Positions 1-21,347 of a stretch of 21,347 nt of DNA are shown here, in pieces. The notes under the pieces are model-generated. The model did not search any database. It was given only the letters and a program-made list of their open reading frames with translations, and had not been told where the DNA came from. Numbering within the stretch: position 1 is the stretch's first letter; each line of letters starts with the position of its first letter. Source of the stretch: a virus. The position numbers and the translations under genes were made by a program. The stretch is taken from positions 1-21,347 of IMG/VR virus record IMGVR_UViG_3300005915_001445; one strand, 5' to 3'.

Positions 1-126
1 CTCTTGTGATAGATGTTTCTTGAGTATTCTTTCTAGTAATCTTCTTTGTTGATAAGTGGGTTTGTAGTCTAGTGTAGGTGTTTTCTTAACATACTCATCT
101 ACTATTGCTTTTATCTTTGCTCTCAT
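1..126 (-). CDS. Hypothetical protein, N-terminal part (runs off window)
   Basis: Only the first 42 residues are present; the gene continues past the left edge. It starts MRAKIKAIVDEYV and is strongly basic, with a predicted helix ending near RRLLERILKKHLSQE. No UGA codon occurs in the visible part. The ATG is the last element of the 29-bp spacer at 124-152, and the upstream zinc-ribbon gene ends with the TAG at the other end of that spacer, so the two are probably co-transcribed. No family can be named from this fragment. Confidence 0.7.
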   Translation of the reverse strand, partial: MRAKIKAIVDEYVKKTPTLDYKPTYQQRRLLERILKKHLSQE

Positions 127-152
127 ACTGTAAGTAAATCAATTAAAATCTA
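124..152 (-). repeat. 29-bp stop-to-start spacer, copy 1
   Basis: This 29-bp sequence is identical at 124-152, 327-355 and 1115-1143. On the minus strand it begins with TAG and ends with ATG. Here TAG stops the zinc-ribbon gene and ATG starts the leftmost gene. The identity stops exactly at these two codons, and the flanking coding sequence differs. Confidence 0.95.
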
Positions 153-329
153 GGCTTCTAAGGTTTTCCTTAAATATCAGTAATTTCTTATGCTTGTTAT
201 ACTTCATTCTTTTCAGCATATATCACACTCTCATCAGTGCATAGTACATACAGTTCATTCTCAAGTATCTCAATACTTATTTCAACATTCTCCACATACA
301 TAATCTGCTTCCTTTATTTTCTTTTCCAT
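150..329 (-). CDS. Small zinc-ribbon protein (59 aa)
   Basis: The 59-residue protein carries C12-x2-C15 (VCGECG) and C35-x2-C38 (ECDICG), with C28 and H31 between, followed by the ending SITSIRNYGYLRKTLEA. Two CxxC knuckles and a closing YGYLRK resemble small zinc-ribbon proteins common in phage genomes. Zinc binding and a role in nucleic-acid or protein interaction follow from that resemblance and are not proven. About ten UGA codons are read as Gly, several inside the knuckles, where glycine is expected. It is flanked on both sides by identical 29-bp spacers: its ATG is the end of copy 2 and its TAG the start of copy 1. Confidence 0.85.
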
Positions 330-355
330 ACTGTAAGTAAATCAATTAAAATCTA
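327..355 (-). repeat. 29-bp stop-to-start spacer, copy 2
   Basis: Identical to the copies at 124-152 and 1115-1143. Its TAG is the stop of the hexapeptide-repeat gene and its ATG is the start of the zinc-ribbon gene. The sequence between is A/T-rich (minus strand: ATTTTAATTGATTTACTTAC followed by AGT) with no obvious Shine-Dalgarno sequence or -10 box. Confidence 0.95.
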
Positions 356-1117
356 GTCAACTATCTCTATCTCATATCATAATTTATCTATTATCTCTTT
401 TACTGTCATCTTCTTAGCCTCTTCATCTTCTATTGGTTCATAGTCTTTTATCAGTAATATTGTTCATTCGTTTTCTATCTCTGCTATATCTCGGTTTTTA
501 TCTTTCCTAGCAAAACATCATCATGATTGTAGTTTGATTTCTCAGGAAACTAGTGCATTTCAGGAAACTCGTGCATCTCAGTAAACTAGTGCATTTCAGG
601 AAACTCTTGCATTTCAGGAAACTAGTGCATCTCAGTAAACTAGTGCATTTCAGGAAACTCTTGCATTTCAGGAAACTCGTGCATCTCAGTAAACTCGTGC
701 ATCTCAGGAAACTCTTGCATTTCAGGAAACTAGTGCATCTCAGTAAACTAGTGCATTTCAGGAAACTCTTGCATTTCAGGAAACTCTTGCATTTCAGGAA
801 ACTAGTGCATTTCAGGAAACTCGTGCATCTCAGTAAACTAGTGCATTTCAGGAAACTCGTGCATCTCAGTAAACTCGTGCATCTCAGTAAACTAGTGCAT
901 TTCAGTAAACTAGTGCATCTCAGGAAACTAGTGCATCTCAGTAAACTAGTGCATCTCAGGAAACTCGTGAGTTATCTTCCTGTGATAGATTACTTTCTTT
1001 CTCTATCCATCATCATAAATCTCATTTAGATACGTTTCAGAAATCCTTTAACGCCTTGATTTGGTATAGCGTTGTTCAGAAAGGTTCTTTGGTTGTCTTA
1101 GTTAGTTTGAATTTCAT
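353..1117 (-). CDS. Left-handed beta-helix (hexapeptide-repeat) protein, 254 aa
   Basis: The N-terminal domain (residues 1-45) reads MKFKLTKTTKEPFGTTLYQI, then KGDLGGWIEKESNLSQE. This is the classic head of phage and bacterial hexapeptide-repeat proteins (YdcK-like), in which LGGWIEKE is nearly invariant. Twenty-four exact hexapeptides V-[SY]-G-[ND]-A-[LR] follow and should fold as a left-handed parallel beta-helix. The tail, from about residue 192, is charged (KDYEPIEDEEAKKMTVKEII). The glycine of all 24 hexapeptides, and three in KGDLGG, are UGA codons, so the standard code would destroy the gene. Its cellular role is unknown; related proteins are accessory (moron-like) phage genes. The start is the ATG closing spacer copy 3 and the stop is the TAG opening copy 2. 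Confidence 0.95.
543..974 (-). repeat. 24 tandem copies of an 18-bp unit
   Basis: Units of 18 bp follow each other without interruption. On the plus strand each is ca-g-(g/t)-aaact-(ag/cg/ct)-tgcat-(t/c)-t, varying only at those sites. On the minus strand each unit encodes one hexapeptide with a UGA glycine. The variable sites produce S/Y, N/D and L/R alternation. The near-identity of the units suggests recent expansion by slippage or unequal recombination. Confidence 0.95.
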
Positions 1118-1143
1118 ACTGTAAGTAAATCAATTAAAATCTA
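1115..1143 (-). repeat. 29-bp spacer, copy 3
   Basis: Identical to the copies at 124-152 and 327-355. Its ATG starts the hexapeptide-repeat gene. Its TAG is not needed as a stop here: the upstream gene ends at a TAA (1145-1147) immediately before it. The full 29 bp are therefore kept even where the TAG is redundant. Confidence 0.95.
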
Positions 1144-1144
1144 T

Positions 1145-1354
1145 TTATTTATTTTGGTTAATATCTAAATCCCAAAAACATCTTGTATATTCTACTCCTG
1201 TCAATCAATCACAATCATTACAAGAATAATATACTCAATTTTTTATTCGACCACAATTCTTTTTTGTTTCTTTATTGTCCCCTATCTCTCATAGTATGCT
1301 AAAGAATACAACTAAACCTACCATAAAAAATAATGCACATCACTTTCTATTCAT
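1145..1354 (-). CDS. Small membrane protein with Cys-rich exterior (69 aa)
   Basis: The 69-residue protein has one transmembrane segment near the N-terminus (about residues 6-21, CALFFMVGLVVFFSIL). A hydrophilic part follows with C34, C45, C48 (YYSCNDCDG) and C59, which could bind metal or form disulfides. Its ATG overlaps the TAA of the upstream gene as TAATG, so the pair is probably translationally coupled. UGA codons give the Gly in RKGC, LGEIG, IKNG and CDG. No known family is recognised. Confidence 0.75.
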
Positions 1355-1467
1355 TATCGGAACTTAGCAATAAAATGTATAATCACAAATGCCACTAATC
1401 AAATTACTCATAAAACTAATACTATCGATGCAATTGCACATCCTACCGCTCTTCTATCATTTTCCAT
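1354..1467 (-). CDS. Tiny single-span membrane protein (37 aa)
   Basis: The 37-residue product starts MENDRRAVG, spans the membrane with about 22 hydrophobic residues (IASIVLVLGVIGLVAFVIIH) and ends FIAKFR. Both glycines inside the membrane segment are UGA, so a standard-code reading stops after 19 residues. It overlaps the next gene through TAATG. It is too small for family assignment. Coupling to a second small membrane protein, downstream of two exported proteins, suggests an envelope role. Confidence 0.7.
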
Positions 1468-1533
1468 ATAAATAATTTCAAATAATAAAACTTATATGTG
1501 AGGGTTATATTCTACAACCCCCAATCATAAATA

Positions 1534-2208
1534 TTATTCAAATCTTATATTAGTGATTTGGTTTCCATTATAAACAGAAACATATCAACCAATATTTATT
1601 GTTTGCCCATTCATCTTTGAAATCATATCTTTCTCACAAGTGACAGGTATAAGGTCTATACTGTCAAATGTGTGAGTGTAAGTAGCTTCAAATGAATTTT
1701 TTCTAATTCTTCCTCCACAGAACCATTTACCACTTTCTATGTAGATAATGATGTTTTGGTTTTCTGTTTCCAAAGGTTTCGCTAACTCAATAACCATTTG
1801 TGTTGCATAAATAGGAACATCAATCTCGTGCATATTAGATTTTGCCCAATCTCTCAACTGGTCTGTGTTCTCTGTGTACCCATTTCCTATAAGGTGTTCT
1901 GGTTGTGCTGCGTATTCAGTCACTAATGCAGTAGCTCCATTAATAGCGGAACTAACAACTACATCTTCAACCATTTCATCTAACGATACTTCAACCTCAT
2001 CTACCTCAGGAACAAGATTACCAACCGCCTCTTCAATCATTTCTTGTATCATATCAGTAGTGATAGTCGCAACAGCACCGCTATTGTCCATAGGTACTAC
2101 GATTTCACTTGTAGCATCACCAGTAAAATTAACTGATAATAATGATAGTGCGATACATAAAATTACTAATCCAATTCTTCATCGGATTTTACTAACTGTT
2201 TTTGCCAT
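1534..2208 (-). CDS. Exported protein of unknown function (224 aa)
   Basis: The start MAKTVSKIRGRIGLVILCIA shows a basic n-region followed by a hydrophobic core (LVILCIALSLLSV), as in a signal peptide or N-terminal anchor. The mature part begins near residue 30. An acidic helical stretch (MIQEMIEEAVGNLVPEVDEV, then LDEMVEDVVV) is followed by a mixed beta region containing IIIYIESGKWFCGGRIR. The standard code places the start 39 codons too late and stops 16 codons too early: UGA at residue 10 and near the C-terminus (INIGGYVSVYNG) reads as Gly. No family is recognised. It lies directly downstream of another exported protein. Confidence 0.8.
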
Positions 2209-2238
2209 AATATATAAATTTTAAAAATAAAACTTTGT

Positions 2239-2826
2239 TTAATAATACTCTAATAAATCTTTGTGTAAATTTGTTTTGTACCAACCTGCTCGTGGGTTAG
2301 TTCCTCATTTACGATACTTCCAATCATAATAAACATCTACCATATAATCCACTTGATTAAATCAATCCATAAAATAATTACTTTGTATGAATGCCTCGTG
2401 ATATGTGAATTGTAATTGTGGCAGTCCCCATTCATTTCTTGACGATTGCTCGAACAATAACATTCTTCTGTTCTCATCAATAAGAGTAAGCACTATTCTT
2501 TCTGCCTCAACCTTATTCCCAAATTTTGAATAAGCATAATTCAATCGTTGCTGTGCGGGGTGCGATTCGGCTAATACTTTGTATCTAAACACCATCGGGA
2601 ACATTTCTCTGTTCCAAGTTTCGTGTTTATCTTCATACCTAATAAAATCCGCTTTAAATTCTTCGCTTGCTGTGTCCCATACTTTAATTGACATACCTCA
2701 GTCCAAAAGATTTTCAGCACTCACATCATTAGAATGCAAAGTGACTAACAAAATGCCCATCAATAACATCACACTTAGTACAATTGTTTGTACAAAATAA
2801 CCGTTTAAAGATTTTAAGACTTTCAT
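2239..2826 (-). CDS. Exported protein, possibly lysozyme-like (195 aa)
   Basis: Residues 1-37 form a signal anchor (TIVLSVMLLMGILLVTL). The C-terminal half resembles the lysozyme / lytic-transglycosylase fold: a Glu in LLFEQSSRNEWGLPQLQF could be the catalytic acid, and FNQVDYMVDVYYDWKYRK followed by NPRAGWYKTN recalls the typical D-x-x-xQVDYMV...AGW ending. If so, it would cut peptidoglycan during entry or lysis. The resemblance is by eye only. Two UGA codons near the end (FMDGFNQ and YRKGGTNPRAGW) must be Gly to reach the TAA at 2239. The two-hairpin leader (2848-2878) lies just upstream. Confidence 0.75.
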
Positions 2827-2847
2827 TATAAAAAAATAATAGATAAA

Positions 2848-2878
2848 GTCAGCAACACTGACGACTTAGTTTAAAGTC
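2848..2878 (-). promoter_or_regulatory. Two back-to-back hairpins in the leader of the 2239-2826 gene
   Basis: Stem 1 pairs GTCAG (2848-2852) with CTGAC (2858-2862) around a 5-nt loop. Stem 2 pairs GACTT (2863-2867) with AAGTC (2874-2878) around a 6-nt loop. On the minus strand they are followed by a T-rich run ending at the ATG. They could act as an attenuator or weak terminator, or control translation of the exported protein. No function is established. Confidence 0.45.
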
Positions 2879-2959
2879 ATAAGTTCATCGGACAAAAATT
2901 TATATGTTAAATAACTACTTCGTATATACTATAATGATTTTATTATTTTTTCAACAACC

Positions 2960-3118
2960 TTATTTTTCTAATTTTCAATTTCTAAATACTTTACATCACA
3001 TTCATTTTACTATCTTCAATCTCTTTTCTAATTTGATTTGTTTTCTTACCTCTACAATAATATCACCCACCAAAGCTCAAAACAAACCGCTTACTACTCA
3101 TAATATAAATATTCACAT
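2960..3118 (-). CDS. Small membrane-anchored protein (52 aa)
   Basis: The 52-residue protein starts MGIFILGVVSGLFGALVGDI, a glycine-rich membrane segment, followed by a basic cytoplasmic helix (VRKQIKLEKRLKIVKG). The layout suggests a small membrane anchor with a coiled or basic tail. Five of its glycines are UGA, including three in the membrane helix, so it is invisible to standard gene calling. It is the first gene after promoter P1, with a leader of about 25-30 nt. No family is recognised. Confidence 0.7.
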
Positions 3119-3145
3119 CTAAACATATAACATAATAAAATACAC

Positions 3146-3194
3146 TAATTTTATATATTTTTCAAACACAATTTCAAGGGCATTTTGATATACC
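3146..3194 (-). promoter_or_regulatory. Promoter P1 with conserved upstream block
   Basis: The minus strand has TTGAAA (3172-3177), a 16-bp spacer and TATAAA (3150-3155). The 49-bp block matches P2 (10301-10349) at 45 of 49 positions, including the upstream element TATATCAAAA and the TTTGAAAAAT just before the -10 box. Conservation beyond the hexamers suggests an operator or activator site. It would drive the genes from 3118 leftward. Confidence 0.7.
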
Positions 3195-3228
3195 ATTTGC
3201 ATATTTAATTTTGTTATATATGGTATTT

Positions 3229-3393
3229 TTAAAATAATTTCATTAATTTCTTTGCTCGATAAGAACTCACAACCATACACAGGAAACAGGTTACTACCGC
3301 TATACTAACCGATACATTATAATATGTTTGAATAACAACAAAAGGACAAACTATACTACAATATATTAATATTCTAAAAAATAATTCCATCAT
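3229..3393 (-). CDS. Two-span small membrane protein (54 aa)
   Basis: The 54-residue protein has two hydrophobic stretches (about residues 4-22 and 29-43, with VSIAVVTCFLCMVVSS) and a basic end, YRAKKLMKLF. It contains no UGA, so it is open in the standard code too but is very short. Two consecutive Met codons start it at 3393 or 3390. It is the last gene before P1, 21 bp downstream of the 3414-3728 gene. No function can be assigned. Confidence 0.6.
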   Translation of the reverse strand: MMELFFRILIYCSIVCPFVVIQTYYNVSVSIAVVTCFLCMVVSSYRAKKLMKLF

Positions 3394-3413
3394 AAAAAAT
3401 TACAAATAAATAA

Positions 3414-3728
3414 TTATACTATTTTAGTAAATATAGGTACTCACGCATCTTTTAATTTCTTCACAGTCCTTGCACTCATCACTCATCTTTTCTTTATAGA
3501 ATGATATGTTGCATATCAACTTCCTATGCTTTTAAATAAAGCAGTAATAGTTGTGTATGTTCTGTAGCAATACAACTGTATCTGTTTATCAGTTTCCTCT
3601 GTAAATTTATAGCTAGCCATAACAAATAATAATAAAATAAATATATATAATTTATGGTATTTTGATATAATTTCAAGTCTTTTTTTATTTATGCTTTTTG
3701 TTGGTTGCTTATTATTGCTTCCATACAT
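3414..3728 (-). CDS. Membrane-anchored hypothetical protein (104 aa)
   Basis: A basic N-terminus (MYGSNNKQPTKSINKKRLEI) precedes one membrane span (KLYIFILLLFVMASYKF). A soluble tail rich in Thr and Tyr follows, ending GVPIFTKIV. The UGA after SIGS, and two more downstream, are Gly, which adds 34 residues to the standard reading. An in-frame TAG precedes the ATG directly, which fixes the start. Its first 40 bp overlap the end of the 3689-3901 gene in another frame. No family is recognised. Confidence 0.65.
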
Positions 3729-3901
3729 CTAAATTTAAGTAGACTAGCTCCAATAGGTTTCATCACATATACATTACCACCTATGGTTGCTATATATATT
3801 TTATTCCAAAGTTTTATATTACCTCAATTGCGAATTGTATCTGCTTTTTTATAAATATTCCCAACCATCATATAAGTAAACCACATATCATTATGCTTCA
3901 T
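3689..3901 (-). CDS. Hypothetical protein (70 aa)
   Basis: The protein starts MKHNDMWFTYMMVGNIYKKA and continues with short beta-like stretches (IKLWNKIYIATIGGNVYVMK). One UGA gives NGGN. It sits 18 bp after the 61-aa gene and overlaps the following membrane-protein gene by 40 bp, as expected in a tightly packed phage operon. It has no recognisable domain. Support comes from its open frame with family-like composition and its position in the operon. Confidence 0.55.
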
Positions 3902-3919
3902 TTTTTTGTTTGTAAAAGA

Positions 3920-4105
3920 TTAAAGAGCAACTGTCTTGCTGTACATAATTTTCCCATTATTATCTAGTACAGGATTTATATAAGGACTAAACAAAGTATT
4001 CAACATCCTCACTGTCCCTTTTCTTAGGGTACTTGTAAAGAATACTATTCAATGTTCTATATTTAAAATCACACAAGTTTTAAATAAGATATGTTCCACT
4101 ATCAT
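3920..4105 (-). CDS. Hypothetical protein (61 aa) overlapping the RusA gene end
   Basis: The ATG lies inside the last codons of the RusA gene (ATGATAG overlap), a typical coupling arrangement. The protein starts MIVEHILFKTCVILNIEHGI, continues with FFTSTLRKGTVRMLNTL and ends IMYSKTVAL. The single UGA (EHGIVFF) is read as Gly. It has no known motif. A shorter product could start at the internal Met of RMLNTL. Confidence 0.55.
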
Positions 4106-4446
4106 TCATCTTTTGAGTTCCATTCGTATTTATCAATAGTAAAATAAATATATTCTTCTCCTTTCTTTACTATATTTTTTTGTACATTAAGGGCATATAC
4201 TCTGTTGTCATTAAACCCATACTTCTTTTGTAGAATATCTAGTATTAGTTTTATAGGTCAATCAATATCTTGTCCTTTGTTTGAGAACCCAAACATAAAT
4301 TTTATAAACAAACGCCCCTTAGGTATTGTAAGTTTAGGCAATACAATCAATAAATATTTTTCATAATTTTTATATTCAGGAGTTTTAAATCTTCTTCATT
4401 TCCAGGCAGCATTTACTGAAAGTGGTTTGATAGAAATTATTGGCAT
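4099..4446 (-). CDS. rusA: RusA-family Holliday junction resolvase (115 aa)
   Basis: RusA nucleases cut four-way DNA junctions as dimers during phage recombination and resolve branched DNA before packaging. The sequence shows the family pattern: an N-terminal beta-strand with KPLSVNAAWKGRRFKTPEY, an acidic D60-x-D62-G-P-I-K66 motif (RusA: D-x-D-N-x-x-K), D70, and D80 in GFNDNRVY. The length of 115 aa is normal (E. coli RusA has 120). UGA codes for Gly at residue 16, at G63 in the active-site motif (family members often have Asn there), and at the last residue. It sits among an HNH protein, a NinB-like protein, SSB and an exonuclease. Confidence 0.88.
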
Positions 4447-4458
4447 CTTTTTTATTAT

Positions 4459-5010
4459 TTAATAAATTAAATATTTTTGTACTATATCTTTTAACCATTG
4501 AATTTCATACTTACTTACTATGTCGTGTTCCTTTCTACATACAAATATTAGGTTGCTTGGGTCATTGAACTTGCTCCCATTCCTACCCTCTATGTGGTGT
4601 ATCTCCTCTGCATTAATTTTCTCTCCAGTAAGTTCGTAGGTGATTTCACAGAACCTATGTACCTCAAAATCCATATCTAATCAGCGACTTTCATACGCAA
4701 CAACTTTATAATCTTTCTTCTGTGTTGCTGGCGTATATTTCTCAACTAATCATTCATCAGATATATTCTTTAAGTCCTCTGCTTTTTTATTCTTATTTGA
4801 AAACTTTTTCTTTTTTTCTTTGTGCCATACTACATTACTTTTAATGGATTTCTCCCATTTAGTATCTGTAAACTTCTTACTATTTTTCTTCTCTTTGTTC
4901 CAAACTGTATCAGTATTTTTACTTTTCCTTGCCTCTTTATTCCAAACAGTCGATTCTCCTTTCTTTTTCTTTTCTTTATTTCGAACAGTTTTCTCAAATT
5001 TTTTAGTCAT
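4459..5010 (-). CDS. HNH endonuclease with basic Trp-repeat N-terminus (183 aa)
   Basis: The C-terminal HNH domain reads EEIHHIEGRNGSKFNDPSNL and then FVCRKEHD, giving the His-His / Asn / His pattern of metal-dependent nucleases. The N-terminal 80 residues hold about five copies of a 14-15 residue basic unit, (T/V)VWNKEKKK-x-(S/K)-x-TDT, very Lys-rich with one Trp per unit. This is probably a DNA-binding or disordered tether. Under the standard code it splits into two separate frames; UGA codons at the junction (SDEGLVEKY, ESRGLDM) join them. The start is placed at 5010 (MTKKFEKTV), where ATGACTAA overlaps the upstream stop; 5025 is an alternative. It lies directly upstream of RusA. Confidence 0.82.
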
Positions 5011-5410
5011 TTGGTATAAGTGCATTAGTAATAAAATTCCCTTTCATTTTATCTAGCAATGTTTTTTGTTGCGGAGTGATTAACTTATCTTGCGGAACAA
5101 GAATTTCCTTTATTTTCTTAGGCTTCTTCCTTGTCCCGTCTTTATCAATCCAAGCAAGTATTGTGCGATAATGACACTTCTTTTTGTTTCATTGTCATAG
5201 CCAGTTTTCTAATTTCTGTATGTATTGTTTAATTACAAATATTCCATAATCGTTTTCTAGTATCATACATTGTTTTTCTGTCATACGGACATAATGAGAA
5301 TATTTCACTTTCTTGTCAGGTATAATCTCTACTCATTCTATTTCATCACAGAACTCTTGTAAGAGACTAATTGCCTTTTGTAATTTTTTAGTATCAACCA
5401 TATCAAACAT
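5003..5410 (-). CDS. Phage replication-protein-like protein (135 aa)
   Basis: The centre reads HYVRMTEKQCMILENDYG, then IQKLENWLGQGNKKKCHYRT, then ILAWIDKDG. This resembles the C-terminal domain common in phage replication-initiation or replisome-organiser proteins (L..Y-G-S/Q-GKKYKSHYATILNW). UGA provides both Gly in WLGQGNKKK, where the family has conserved glycines. The N-terminal helix and basic Lys-rich C-terminal tail (TRKKPKKIKEI) fit DNA or partner binding. No initiator or helicase domain is fused to it, so its role is accessory at most. The stop overlaps the HNH start. Another Met (residue 4) could be used. Confidence 0.72.
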
Positions 5411-7009: not shown

Positions 7010-7354
7010 TTAAAATGCGTCCTCTATAATTATTCCTTGCTTCGCTAAAGTGTTCAACACTTCCTCTAAATATCAACTGAACTCTGTCACTCATAATTCT
7101 TTTGTACTAGGCAATCATTCAACATCTCCTATTATTTTATGTTTGAAATAATAATGTAATTCTGTGGGACTGTGTCCTGTTTCCTTTGAAGCGATTGACA
7201 ACACCTTCCAATACTTAGAGTTCTGCTGTAAAGTGCGGTCTCAGTGACGCTTTATTTCAATAGAATACTGTCAATCCTTCCTAGTGGACAAATACACCTT
7301 TATATCATTATTGTTCGGCATTACTCCATTTTCTATCTGTTTCACAAAATACAT
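7010..7354 (-). CDS. NinB / Orf-like recombination protein (114 aa)
   Basis: The protein contains GDRTLQQNSKYWKVLSIASK, then ETGHSPTELHYYFKHKII, then STKELGVTEFSGYLEEVLNT and AKQGIIIEDAF. This order (R-x-x-QN-x-Y-W-x-V-L, T-G-x-S/T-x-E-x-H, STxEL-x-x-x-EF-x-x-YLE, G-I-x-I) is that of lambda NinB/Orf, an SSB-binding recombination mediator that loads recombinase. UGA encodes Gly at KDGQYS, RHGDRT, VEGLPS, ELGVTE and FSGYLE. A partner SSB with an acidic tail lies upstream at 8640-9380. Assignment is by motif order only. Confidence 0.75.
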
Positions 7355-8097: not shown

Positions 8098-8568
8098 TTA
8101 TTTTTTATAACAAATATTATTTTCTATATCTCTATTTTTACATTGTTCTTTAGGAGTAACCCATCTACAATTTTCTTTACAATAATTTCAATTATTATCA
8201 ATACGGTCTATTTGAGTTTGTCTATTTTCTTTTCATCAATTTTCATTCCAATGTGCCATATAACAATCTAACATATCACTATAAAAATGTTTGTAATCAT
8301 CCCATAATACCTTTATTCATCTTCAACCATATCTATGATAATTTCTTATATTTTTATTATAACACCTACTCATCATACTACTATAAATAACATTCAATCT
8401 TTTTTTAGGACTAGACCAATATCTTTTTTTATCTACTTCTTTACTTCTATTACTTCTAGCATAAGCTCTTTTGCACTCCTTACAAAAATTTAAATATCAA
8501 GATGGCATTTGTGGGTGCTTATAAAACTCTGACACTGGTTTCTCTTGTTGGCATTGTTTACATTTCAT
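8098..8568 (-). CDS. HNH homing-endonuclease-like protein with zinc ribbon (156 aa)
   Basis: A zinc ribbon is formed by C3-x2-C6 and C29-x2-C32. The core reads SSMMSRCYNKNIRNYHRYGG followed by RGIKVLWDDYKHFYSDM, then QIDRIDNNGNYCKENCRW and VTPKEQCKNR. This is the well-known phage/mobile HNH family with R-Y-G-G-R-G-I-x-V and I-D-R-I-D-x-x-G-x-Y...N-C-R-W. Three glycines of YGGRGIK and DNNGNY match the family, and two of the YGGRG glycines and that of NNGNY are UGA. Such proteins are usually free-standing homing or mobile nucleases inserted between replication genes. Catalytic activity is not certain. Confidence 0.85.
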
Positions 8569-10274: not shown

Positions 10275-10300
10275 AAACATATACTAAACATTTAAAACAT

Positions 10301-10349
10301 TAATTTTATATATTTTTCAAATACGATTGCAAGGGCTTTTTGATATACC
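10301..10349 (-). promoter_or_regulatory. Promoter P2 with conserved upstream block
   Basis: TTGCAA (10327-10332), a 16-bp spacer and TATAAA (10305-10310) on the minus strand, inside a 49-bp block that matches P1 at 45 positions. It precedes the exonuclease-SSB-recombination operon. Confidence 0.75.
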
Positions 10350-10471
10350 ACTTGTGCTATTTATTTTACTATTCATAATATAAATGGTGGCTATTTATAC
10401 GACTGCAGTTATATAAATACTTACGAGCCTAGTTCTATCGCAACGACCAAAAAAAGACTACCACTATTTAT
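10350..10471. other. Intergenic region before P2
   Basis: These 122 bp lie between the four-helix-bundle gene stop and P2. They hold the less A/T-rich stretch CTGCAGTCGTATAAATAG (minus strand) and a T7 run in GTCTTTTTTTGG that could end the upstream operon, but no convincing terminator stem or gene. Confidence 0.4.
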
Positions 10472-12909: not shown

Positions 12910-12960
12910 TTGAATAAGAATAAATAAAATAAAACCTTTTCTTTTCATTTTGATAACTAG

Positions 12961-13002
12961 ATACTATATTTTTCAAATACAATTGCAAGGTCTTTTTGAT
13001 AT
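12961..13002 (-). promoter_or_regulatory. Promoter P3
   Basis: TTGCAA (12983-12988), a 16-bp spacer and TAGTAT (12961-12966) on the minus strand. The core TTGTATTTGAAAAATAT and the upstream ATATCAAAAAG are shared with P1 and P2; the -10 box differs. Upstream, 13003-13086 is non-coding and low-complexity, with repeated TTTTATG on the plus strand. Confidence 0.65.
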
Positions 13003-13086
13003 TTACTCCCACTTCTTGTATATTATATATATAGTATATTTTATGTATGTTTTATGTTTGGTTTGATGTTATGTACTAATTGGGTT

Positions 13087-19622: not shown

Positions 19623-21311
19623 CTACAAAGCCTTGCGTCTCTCTTTTATAATCAGCGTATTACTTGCCCCGTCATTAACCATTTTATATCTATAATGTCT
19701 TCGGTTAGCATCATCAGCACTACATGCGAATGTTATTGTATCATTCGTAACAGTCACACTTGAAGCTGCTGCAGCTACTCCTGTTATATTATTAAAGAAA
19801 TCTATTTGAATCCAATCAGCGTTTGTTGTATCTTCATCATTTGTTACTTCTAATGTCAATGTCATAGTTCAATCAGCGTCAATCATTTTTCCAGAGAAAG
19901 ACAAATCTTTATATCAATCCATGCTAGCACCTAATGCACTTGGATAATAATTAGTATCTGCTGCAACATTAGTTGTATCAGCTATTGATTGAGAACTATA
20001 ATGTTTATCAATCCCAGATTGTTCTGTAATTTTTAAAACATCAAGAGTACTATCATATGCTTTATCAAACATATTCAAACAAACATCGTAAGTGTCACCG
20101 CTGGTAAATGGTGTCCCTGCTCCAGTAATAGTAATCACATTTGAAGATACACTCATTGTCACCCCATTAGCACCATTCACATATCTTGTCGCAGTTGTAC
20201 CTGCTGTGTCTGTCACTAGAATAGAAGATAACATATTATTTGTTATCGTTCAAGGAGCTCCCGCTATTGTAATACTTGTAGTAGAAGTATATGTTGCTAT
20301 AAAATCATCTCTCGCACTTGAATGTGTATAAGGTGGAATAGGCACAGTTCATTCCAAACCGTCTACCGCTTCACCTATATATCTTAACTGTCCGTGTATG
20401 TTTCAATCTACATCACTCGCCTCGCCTATTGCCCCAAACTGGGTATCATCTGTTGCTATAGTAATCGGATTTGATTGAGCCATTACCGCTGTCCCTGGTA
20501 TTGATTGCCTAGAAACATTAGTATATATTCTGAATGTATCACTAGCCCCGAATGTTGCACCAGTCACAGTCAAAACATTTGCTGCTAAAGTCATAAGTGC
20601 ATCGTCCCTTGTATATGTTGCAACTACTGTACCACCAGTATTAATTTGTTGCACTACTTCAATATCTGCTATTGCTATTGTTGAATGGAATGTAGGTCAA
20701 GCACCAATAGTAATTGTAGCACCTCATAAATAAGCGGAAGTGAAATCTCCACCCGCACTTTTACCTATCAATGTACCGCCTGCAATATTTGTAGCATCTA
20801 CATTTATATCTCCACTAATCGAAACTACTAAATCTCTTGGAATATTTGTGTAAACCACAAATGTATCTGTTCCCCCAAAACTTGCACCAGTCACAGTAAT
20901 CACATTAGTAATGACACTTATAGTGACATCATCTCTTGAATAAGTATTTGCTACCGCTCACGCTGCAGTAAATTGCACTATCGCCTGTATATCTTCTGCG
21001 ATAAGGCTTGCGTGTGAAGTTGGTAATCCTGCTACTGTGATTTGTGTTGCCGCTGTATAAGCAGTAGTGAAATCACCTCAACTTGTTTTTCCTACTAACC
21101 CAGTAGTTGACATAGAAATATTATCTACATTTATTTCTCCTCAATCTAAAGTAGCCAATACTCTTAGACGACCATTAAGGTCTAATTGAAATGGAGAATA
21201 TTGTCAATCAGCTGTTCCTGTCAACAATCCTGCCGCTGTCGCTACAACTCCTCATCCACTTATTTGTTCTCACGCTTTGTAAACCGCTCACGATACATTA
21301 ATACTAGACAT
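19623..21311 (-). CDS. Repeat-rich virion structural protein (562 aa)
   Basis: The protein starts MSSINVSGAVYKAGEQISGG, with GQYSPFQLDLNGRLRVLATL, a pattern frequent in phage structural or adhesion proteins. Three related units of about 90-110 residues follow (about 72-165, 181-270 and 331-425). Each has G-K-x-x-G-G-D-F-T-x-A-Y or a variant, then I-T-I/V-A-G, then NVITVTGASFGGTDTF-like strands. The C-terminal part (GYKDLSFSGKMIDADGTMTL and DDANRRHYRYKMVNDGASNT) may be a final beta domain. The composition is Thr/Ser/Ala/Val-rich, as in tail or baseplate proteins. The standard code breaks it into several fragments. Its Met start lies 36 bp from the window edge. Confidence 0.78.
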
Positions 21312-21347
21312 TTTTAAAATAATTTAATAGTTAAAAGTTTATTTTAT

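Follow-up and report, generated by a model that had tools for sequence, protein, structure and literature searches.

A repeated 29-bp putative start leader in a code-25 phage as a candidate site of short-homology gene replacement

Cluster K mycobacteriophages carry a 13-bp sequence, the SAS (GGGATAGGAGCCC), which contains a Shine-Dalgarno core and occurs 11 to 19 times per genome (Pope et al. 2011, PMC3203893), and its function is still undefined (PMC11373665). Work cited in PMC3029335 and PMC2327257 has put forward short conserved boundary sequences as mediators of modular exchange in (lambdoid) phages, and RecA- or Red-dependent recombination needs at least about 30 bp of homology (PMC2327257). 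It is debated whether phages exchange genes one at a time, with expression intact, by recombination at short homologies or by illegitimate joining that is filtered by selection. In Flavobacterium johnsoniae, where initiation does without a Shine-Dalgarno sequence, adenines at −3 and −12/−13 promote it (PMC6847099). Code-25 phages of Absconditabacteria and Gracilibacteria have been described, in a report whose main text is silent on repeats, promoters, and linkers (PMC10746230); for phages of uncultured bacteria, gene expression signals have been little studied.

We analyzed a viral record of 21,347 bases (the window), the genes of which were translated with code 25 (TGA=Gly) because in-frame TGA codons require it. 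A sequence-only reading of this DNA had pointed to three identical 29-bp linkers bounded by TAG and ATG, and all three proved exact: the 29-mer TAGATTTTAATTGATTTACTTACAGTATG is present in three identical copies on the minus strand (Table 1), each reading 5′-TAG...ATG-3′ in that orientation. No fourth copy was found in the record at up to 3 mismatches, and the nearest partial match in the window carries 10 mismatches in 29 positions. With the solenoid gene excluded, the longest exact direct repeat in the window amounts to 30 nt, since copies 1 and 2 agree over one further base (C) on the left; in 100 windows simulated with a first-order Markov model, the longest repeat averaged 15.4 nt, with a maximum of 18 nt. 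A scan of viral contigs yielded two further identical copies, at G001:94-122 and G002:209-237, and the five exact copies now known all belong to one phage population. The linker lies at the junction between genes in a single orientation, and the ATG at its end is the start of an ORF in every one of the five copies.

In transcription order, the locus consists of the 69-aa gene, a linker, the 254-aa hexapeptide solenoid, a linker, the 59-aa zinc ribbon, a linker, and the MRAKIKAI... gene, a map that bears out the earlier description of linkers on both sides of the hexapeptide-repeat and zinc-ribbon genes. The linkers had also been said to run exactly from stop codon to start codon. This is true of two of the five copies, in which the TAG is the functional stop of the hexapeptide gene (copy 2) or of the zinc-ribbon gene (copy 1), but in the other three an earlier stop intervenes. 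At copy 3, a TAA at 1145-1147 already terminates the upstream 69-aa gene, and the TAG is redundant there, as had been noticed; in G002, the ORF before the linker (at 209) already ends at 201-203; and in G001, it stops ahead of the linker in both plausible frames. The stop-to-start fit is largely explained by the intercistronic gaps, which measure about 20 to 30 nt here, so that a copied leader fills the gap. Two other repeats were observed in the window. Within the solenoid gene, positions 542-970 form a near-perfect 18-bp tandem repeat, the number of which may vary, and a 168-aa open frame on the opposite strand (523-1029, plus) is a product of this repeat. A second, less conserved repeat (63 to 78%) occurs on the minus strand at 3139-3226, 10294-10381, and 12950-13037, where it codes for a similar peptide end (YQxALxIVFEKYIK) just upstream of three different genes; these are possibly small paralogous ORFs.

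Table 1. Linker copies, neighboring genes, and other features located in the window
Feature	Position	Strand	Remarks
Linker copy 3 (first in transcription order)	1115..1143	-	Leader and ATG of hexapeptide gene
Linker copy 2	327..355	-	TAG is hexapeptide gene stop, ATG is zinc-ribbon gene start
Linker copy 1	124..152	-	TAG is zinc-ribbon gene stop, ATG is MRAKIKAI... start
69-aa gene of unknown function, upstream of linker array	1145..1354	-	
Hexapeptide-repeat solenoid gene, 254 aa	353..1117	-	YdcK beta solenoid / bactofilin; phrog_5070
Zinc-ribbon gene, 59 aa	150..329	-	Unannotated homologues, 47% identical, in Flavobacterium phages
MRAKIKAI... gene, 5′ part, truncated by contig end	1..126	-	Homologue MKAKIEAI... 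after linker in G001 and G002
NinB/Orf-like homologous recombination mediator gene	7010..7354	-	phrog_72, E=3.2e-11
Possible (weak) RusA-like Holliday-junction resolvase gene	4099..4446	-	phrog_11573, unknown function, E=1.6e-36; phrog_140, RusA-like, E=0.0021
HNH genes	8101-8568 and 4462-5025		
Exact 120-nt overlap with G001 end (25552-25671)	21228..21347		

To describe the start signals of this phage, a profile was built from 25 other intercistronic leaders of the window and G001, which are 15 to 45 nt long, the median intercistronic gap being 22.5 nt. These leaders are T-rich at −25 to −22 and at −16/−15 and carry A at −14 to −11 and at −3 (0.80), and none contains a Shine-Dalgarno-like motif (fraction, 0.00). 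TTTTA occurs within −31 to −14 in 92% of them versus 5% of the background. The linker has TTTTA at −22, A at −3, and no Shine-Dalgarno sequence; its profile score exceeds those of about 97 to 98.5% of internal ATGs, and only 16% of the true leaders score below it, which makes it a weak member of the leader class. Judged by these features, it would initiate translation in vivo. The other leaders have a mean of 11.8 of 26 positions in common (maximum, 20), so leader function alone does not require 29 identical bases. What the identity suggests instead is that the linker was copied or exchanged recently or that it has a further, sequence-specific role; given its weak profile match, it may have a second function under which its sequence is kept constant. 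The proposal of a repeated translation-initiation signal was thus borne out in position and, weakly, in resemblance, but it leaves the identity of the copies unexplained. A similar but weaker leader pattern was seen in the related contigs G003, G004, and L069, in which no other repeated leaders were found. The Shine-Dalgarno-free profile should be useful for gene calling in phages of this kind.

Other roles were considered for the linker. An RNA-processing site, suggested by the sequence-only reading, was rejected, as the linker forms no structure and has no Rfam match. The same fate befell the structured, attC-like recombination site: the fold energy of the linker is no better than that of shuffles on either strand, and it contains no inverted repeat or hairpin. 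A promoter was likewise rejected, as 14 candidates were found in the region against 15.4 expected from shuffles.

The two contigs found in the scan, G001 (25,671 bp) and G002 (12,464 bp), stem from different samples. The last 120 bases of G001 are the reverse complement of the last 120 bases of the window, and because of this exact end overlap, G001 is regarded as the neighboring genome piece; the two are very probably consecutive parts of a single phage genome (about 47 kb), in which the unassembled gap falls in the linker region. A search for the 29-mer in the rest of the genome thus gave no fourth copy in the record but one in this neighboring piece. From the first base of the linker (its first T), G001 and G002 are 100% identical across 12,256 bp, whereas upstream of it they are unrelated, the break in identity falling exactly on that base; the upstream pieces that differ span no more than 93 and 208 nt, and both lie at contig ends. 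In G002, a pentapeptide-repeat protein ends in this piece (54% over 41 aa relative to the C terminus of Rheinheimera phage Barba19A gp048), and the piece is absent from both G001 and the window; in G001, it is the end of a short ORF of ambiguous frame. The window, G001, and G002 each end 93 to 208 nt past the outermost linker, as expected of a repeated or variable site. The break could mean that a gene was replaced at the linker or that a contig is chimeric, and both predict the same pattern; we infer a real replacement, by homologous recombination within the linker. Gene exchange in relatives, for which the sequence-only reading had proposed to look, agrees with the position of the break exactly at the linker, but active whole-gene swapping would then be deduced from one contig pair, which could be an assembly chimera. 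That reading had regarded a simple local duplication as implied if neither further copies nor gene exchange were seen; two more contigs were found to carry the linker, with different upstream genes.

In both G001 and G002, the MKAKIEAI... gene directly follows the linker. About 25 of its first 27 nt agree with those of the MRAKIKAI gene, the middle of the two genes has diverged, and the last 20 nt of the MRAKIKAI gene present in the window equal G001:223-242; the window gene may be an allele or a neighbor of the G001 gene. Just past the linker gene, positions 737-5051 of G001 (L024) contain PTPS/QueD-like, QueC, radical SAM, and queuine tRNA-ribosyltransferase-like genes, and this 7-deazaguanine-type gene run suggests DNA or tRNA base modification in the phage.

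Searches with an exact 17-mer of the 3′ part of the linker and with a degenerate 5′ part plus ATG returned unrelated chance matches besides G001 and G002, and a search of bacterial and archaeal genomes with an exact 19-mer gave nothing but chance matches; these searches revealed no second phage lineage that carries the linker. In L047, another code-25 phage contig, a clear hexapeptide orthologue is not preceded by the linker. Among the relatives identified by terminase, L068 and L069 begin 1.2 to 1.9 kb before the terminase gene, short of the linker site. The types of gene inserted here, hexapeptide solenoid and zinc ribbon, are scattered over unrelated phages, the former being common across many. 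L047 encodes another repeat protein as well, of 404 aa and built of 12-bp (NVRA-type) repeats (2762-3976).

With a probability of roughly 0.55, we take the linker to be a start leader that has been copied and that also offers about 30 bp of homology at which genes can be replaced. The 29-mer would constitute a complete intercistronic initiation leader, comprising a stop codon, a T-rich block, A at −3, and ATG. It probably belonged originally to the small MKAKIEAI/MRAKIKAI gene, because the linker pairs with this gene in all three contigs, and would have been copied unchanged ahead of unrelated small accessory genes, namely, the hexapeptide solenoid and the zinc ribbon. The identical copies of about 30 bp could then serve as short homologies for general recombination, phage or host encoded, which would add or replace single genes while the downstream gene keeps an intact start signal. 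The TAG, a functional stop in two of the five copies only, would let the exchange tolerate incoming genes that lack a stop of their own. The NinB/Orf-like gene product is a possible source of such recombination; no annealing protein (RecT/Erf/Sak) was recognized among the window genes searched. We give considerably less credence to the further step of a cassette slot, in which a leader of minimal recombination length is repeated and the ORF between copies is both translated and swapped as a unit; it is likewise doubtful that such a slot would provide a virus of code-25 bacteria with an array of interchangeable accessory genes. The window genes searched showed no active cassette machinery. If the copied-leader explanation is true, the repeat unites a complete start signal with about 30 bp of homology and would be a natural example of short-homology recombination.

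The identity of the copies could also have been preserved by selection, if the 29-mer were a start-associated regulatory element recognized by some factor of the phage or its host (a protein that binds RNA or DNA, or else a near-leaderless promoter), by which a few accessory genes are coregulated. We consider this an unlikely but serious alternative. The position of the five copies, always immediately ahead of ATG, is consistent with it, as is the fact that the linker has stayed identical though the adjoining homologues MRAKIK and MKAKIE diverged midgene, and the SAS of Cluster K mycobacteriophages provides a precedent (PMC3203893, PMC11373665). However, there are only three copies in 21.3 kb and one in the 25.7-kb neighbor, all around one site, the region shows no excess of promoters, the linker forms no RNA structure, and the G001/G002 break would be left without an explanation. 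Somewhat less probable still is a simple local duplication, in which the leader was recently duplicated along with two gene insertions, exchange is not ongoing, and the G001/G002 junction is a chimera. The clustering of the copies within 1.1 kb, the lack of copies in other lineages in the searches made, and the contig ends close to the linker all accord with a duplication, but assemblies of different samples would both have had to break at the linker, and the upstream sequence of G002 occurs in neither G001 nor the window. Moreover, the 120-nt end overlap suggests a large assembly k-mer, with which a 29-bp repeat would be unambiguous.

A dedicated cassette system, in which a site-specific recombinase or a homing (HNH) endonuclease inserts whole linker-gene units at the linker, appears improbable. 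The window does contain HNH genes (Table 1), the boundaries are precise, and linkers are preceded by genes of at least three types; yet phages often have HNH genes and nothing ties those of the window to the linker, inverted repeats and hairpins are absent from the linker, and no integrase (including tyrosine integrase) or transposase was recognized among the window genes scanned. We give least weight of all to a coding repeat, according to which the proteins would have in common an N-terminal peptide specified by the linker, DFNGFTYS-M (TGA=Gly). Every copy is open in this frame, and some have ATGs upstream, but copy 3 has an in-frame TAA one codon before GAT and no ATG, GTG, or TTG between this TAA and the ATG of the linker, and there is no such ATG in G002. 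A scan allowing synonymous codons returned the same exact copies only, and on this result and the TAA of copy 3 an N-terminal peptide tag was rejected.

The linker can finally be set against the systems described previously. It differs from the attC sites of integron cassettes in having no imperfect palindrome that folds as single-stranded DNA. The leaders of this phage resemble the Kozak-like, Shine-Dalgarno-free initiation regions of Bacteroidetes (PMC6847099) in A at −3 and in the A-rich stretch at −14 to −11, but they add the T-rich blocks at −25 to −22 and −16/−15, and the linker is a weak representative of them. With the SAS, the linker shares the character of a short, near-invariant, one-orientation repeat directly before start codons; both precede small nonstructural genes from unrelated families, sometimes include the upstream stop codon, and can be lacking where a related phage has the same gene. 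The linker is nevertheless not a member of the SAS family, to judge from its 29 bp including TAG and ATG, its AT-rich composition, and its lack of a Shine-Dalgarno core or SAS consensus. Instead of preceding 11 to 19 genes, it is found in few, clustered copies (three in the window and one in G001, with the gap between them unassembled), and it coincides with a possible gene-replacement break. Compared with the boundary sequences proposed for phages, as far as these are portrayed in the works cited above, the linker is repeated inside a single genome and would act as a translation leader, and the presumed exchange is represented by a single contig pair. It resembles them in being a short conserved intergenic sequence and in having a length near the minimum of about 30 bp for homologous recombination, and would also do so in having different genes on one side in near-identical relatives if neither G001 nor G002 is chimeric.
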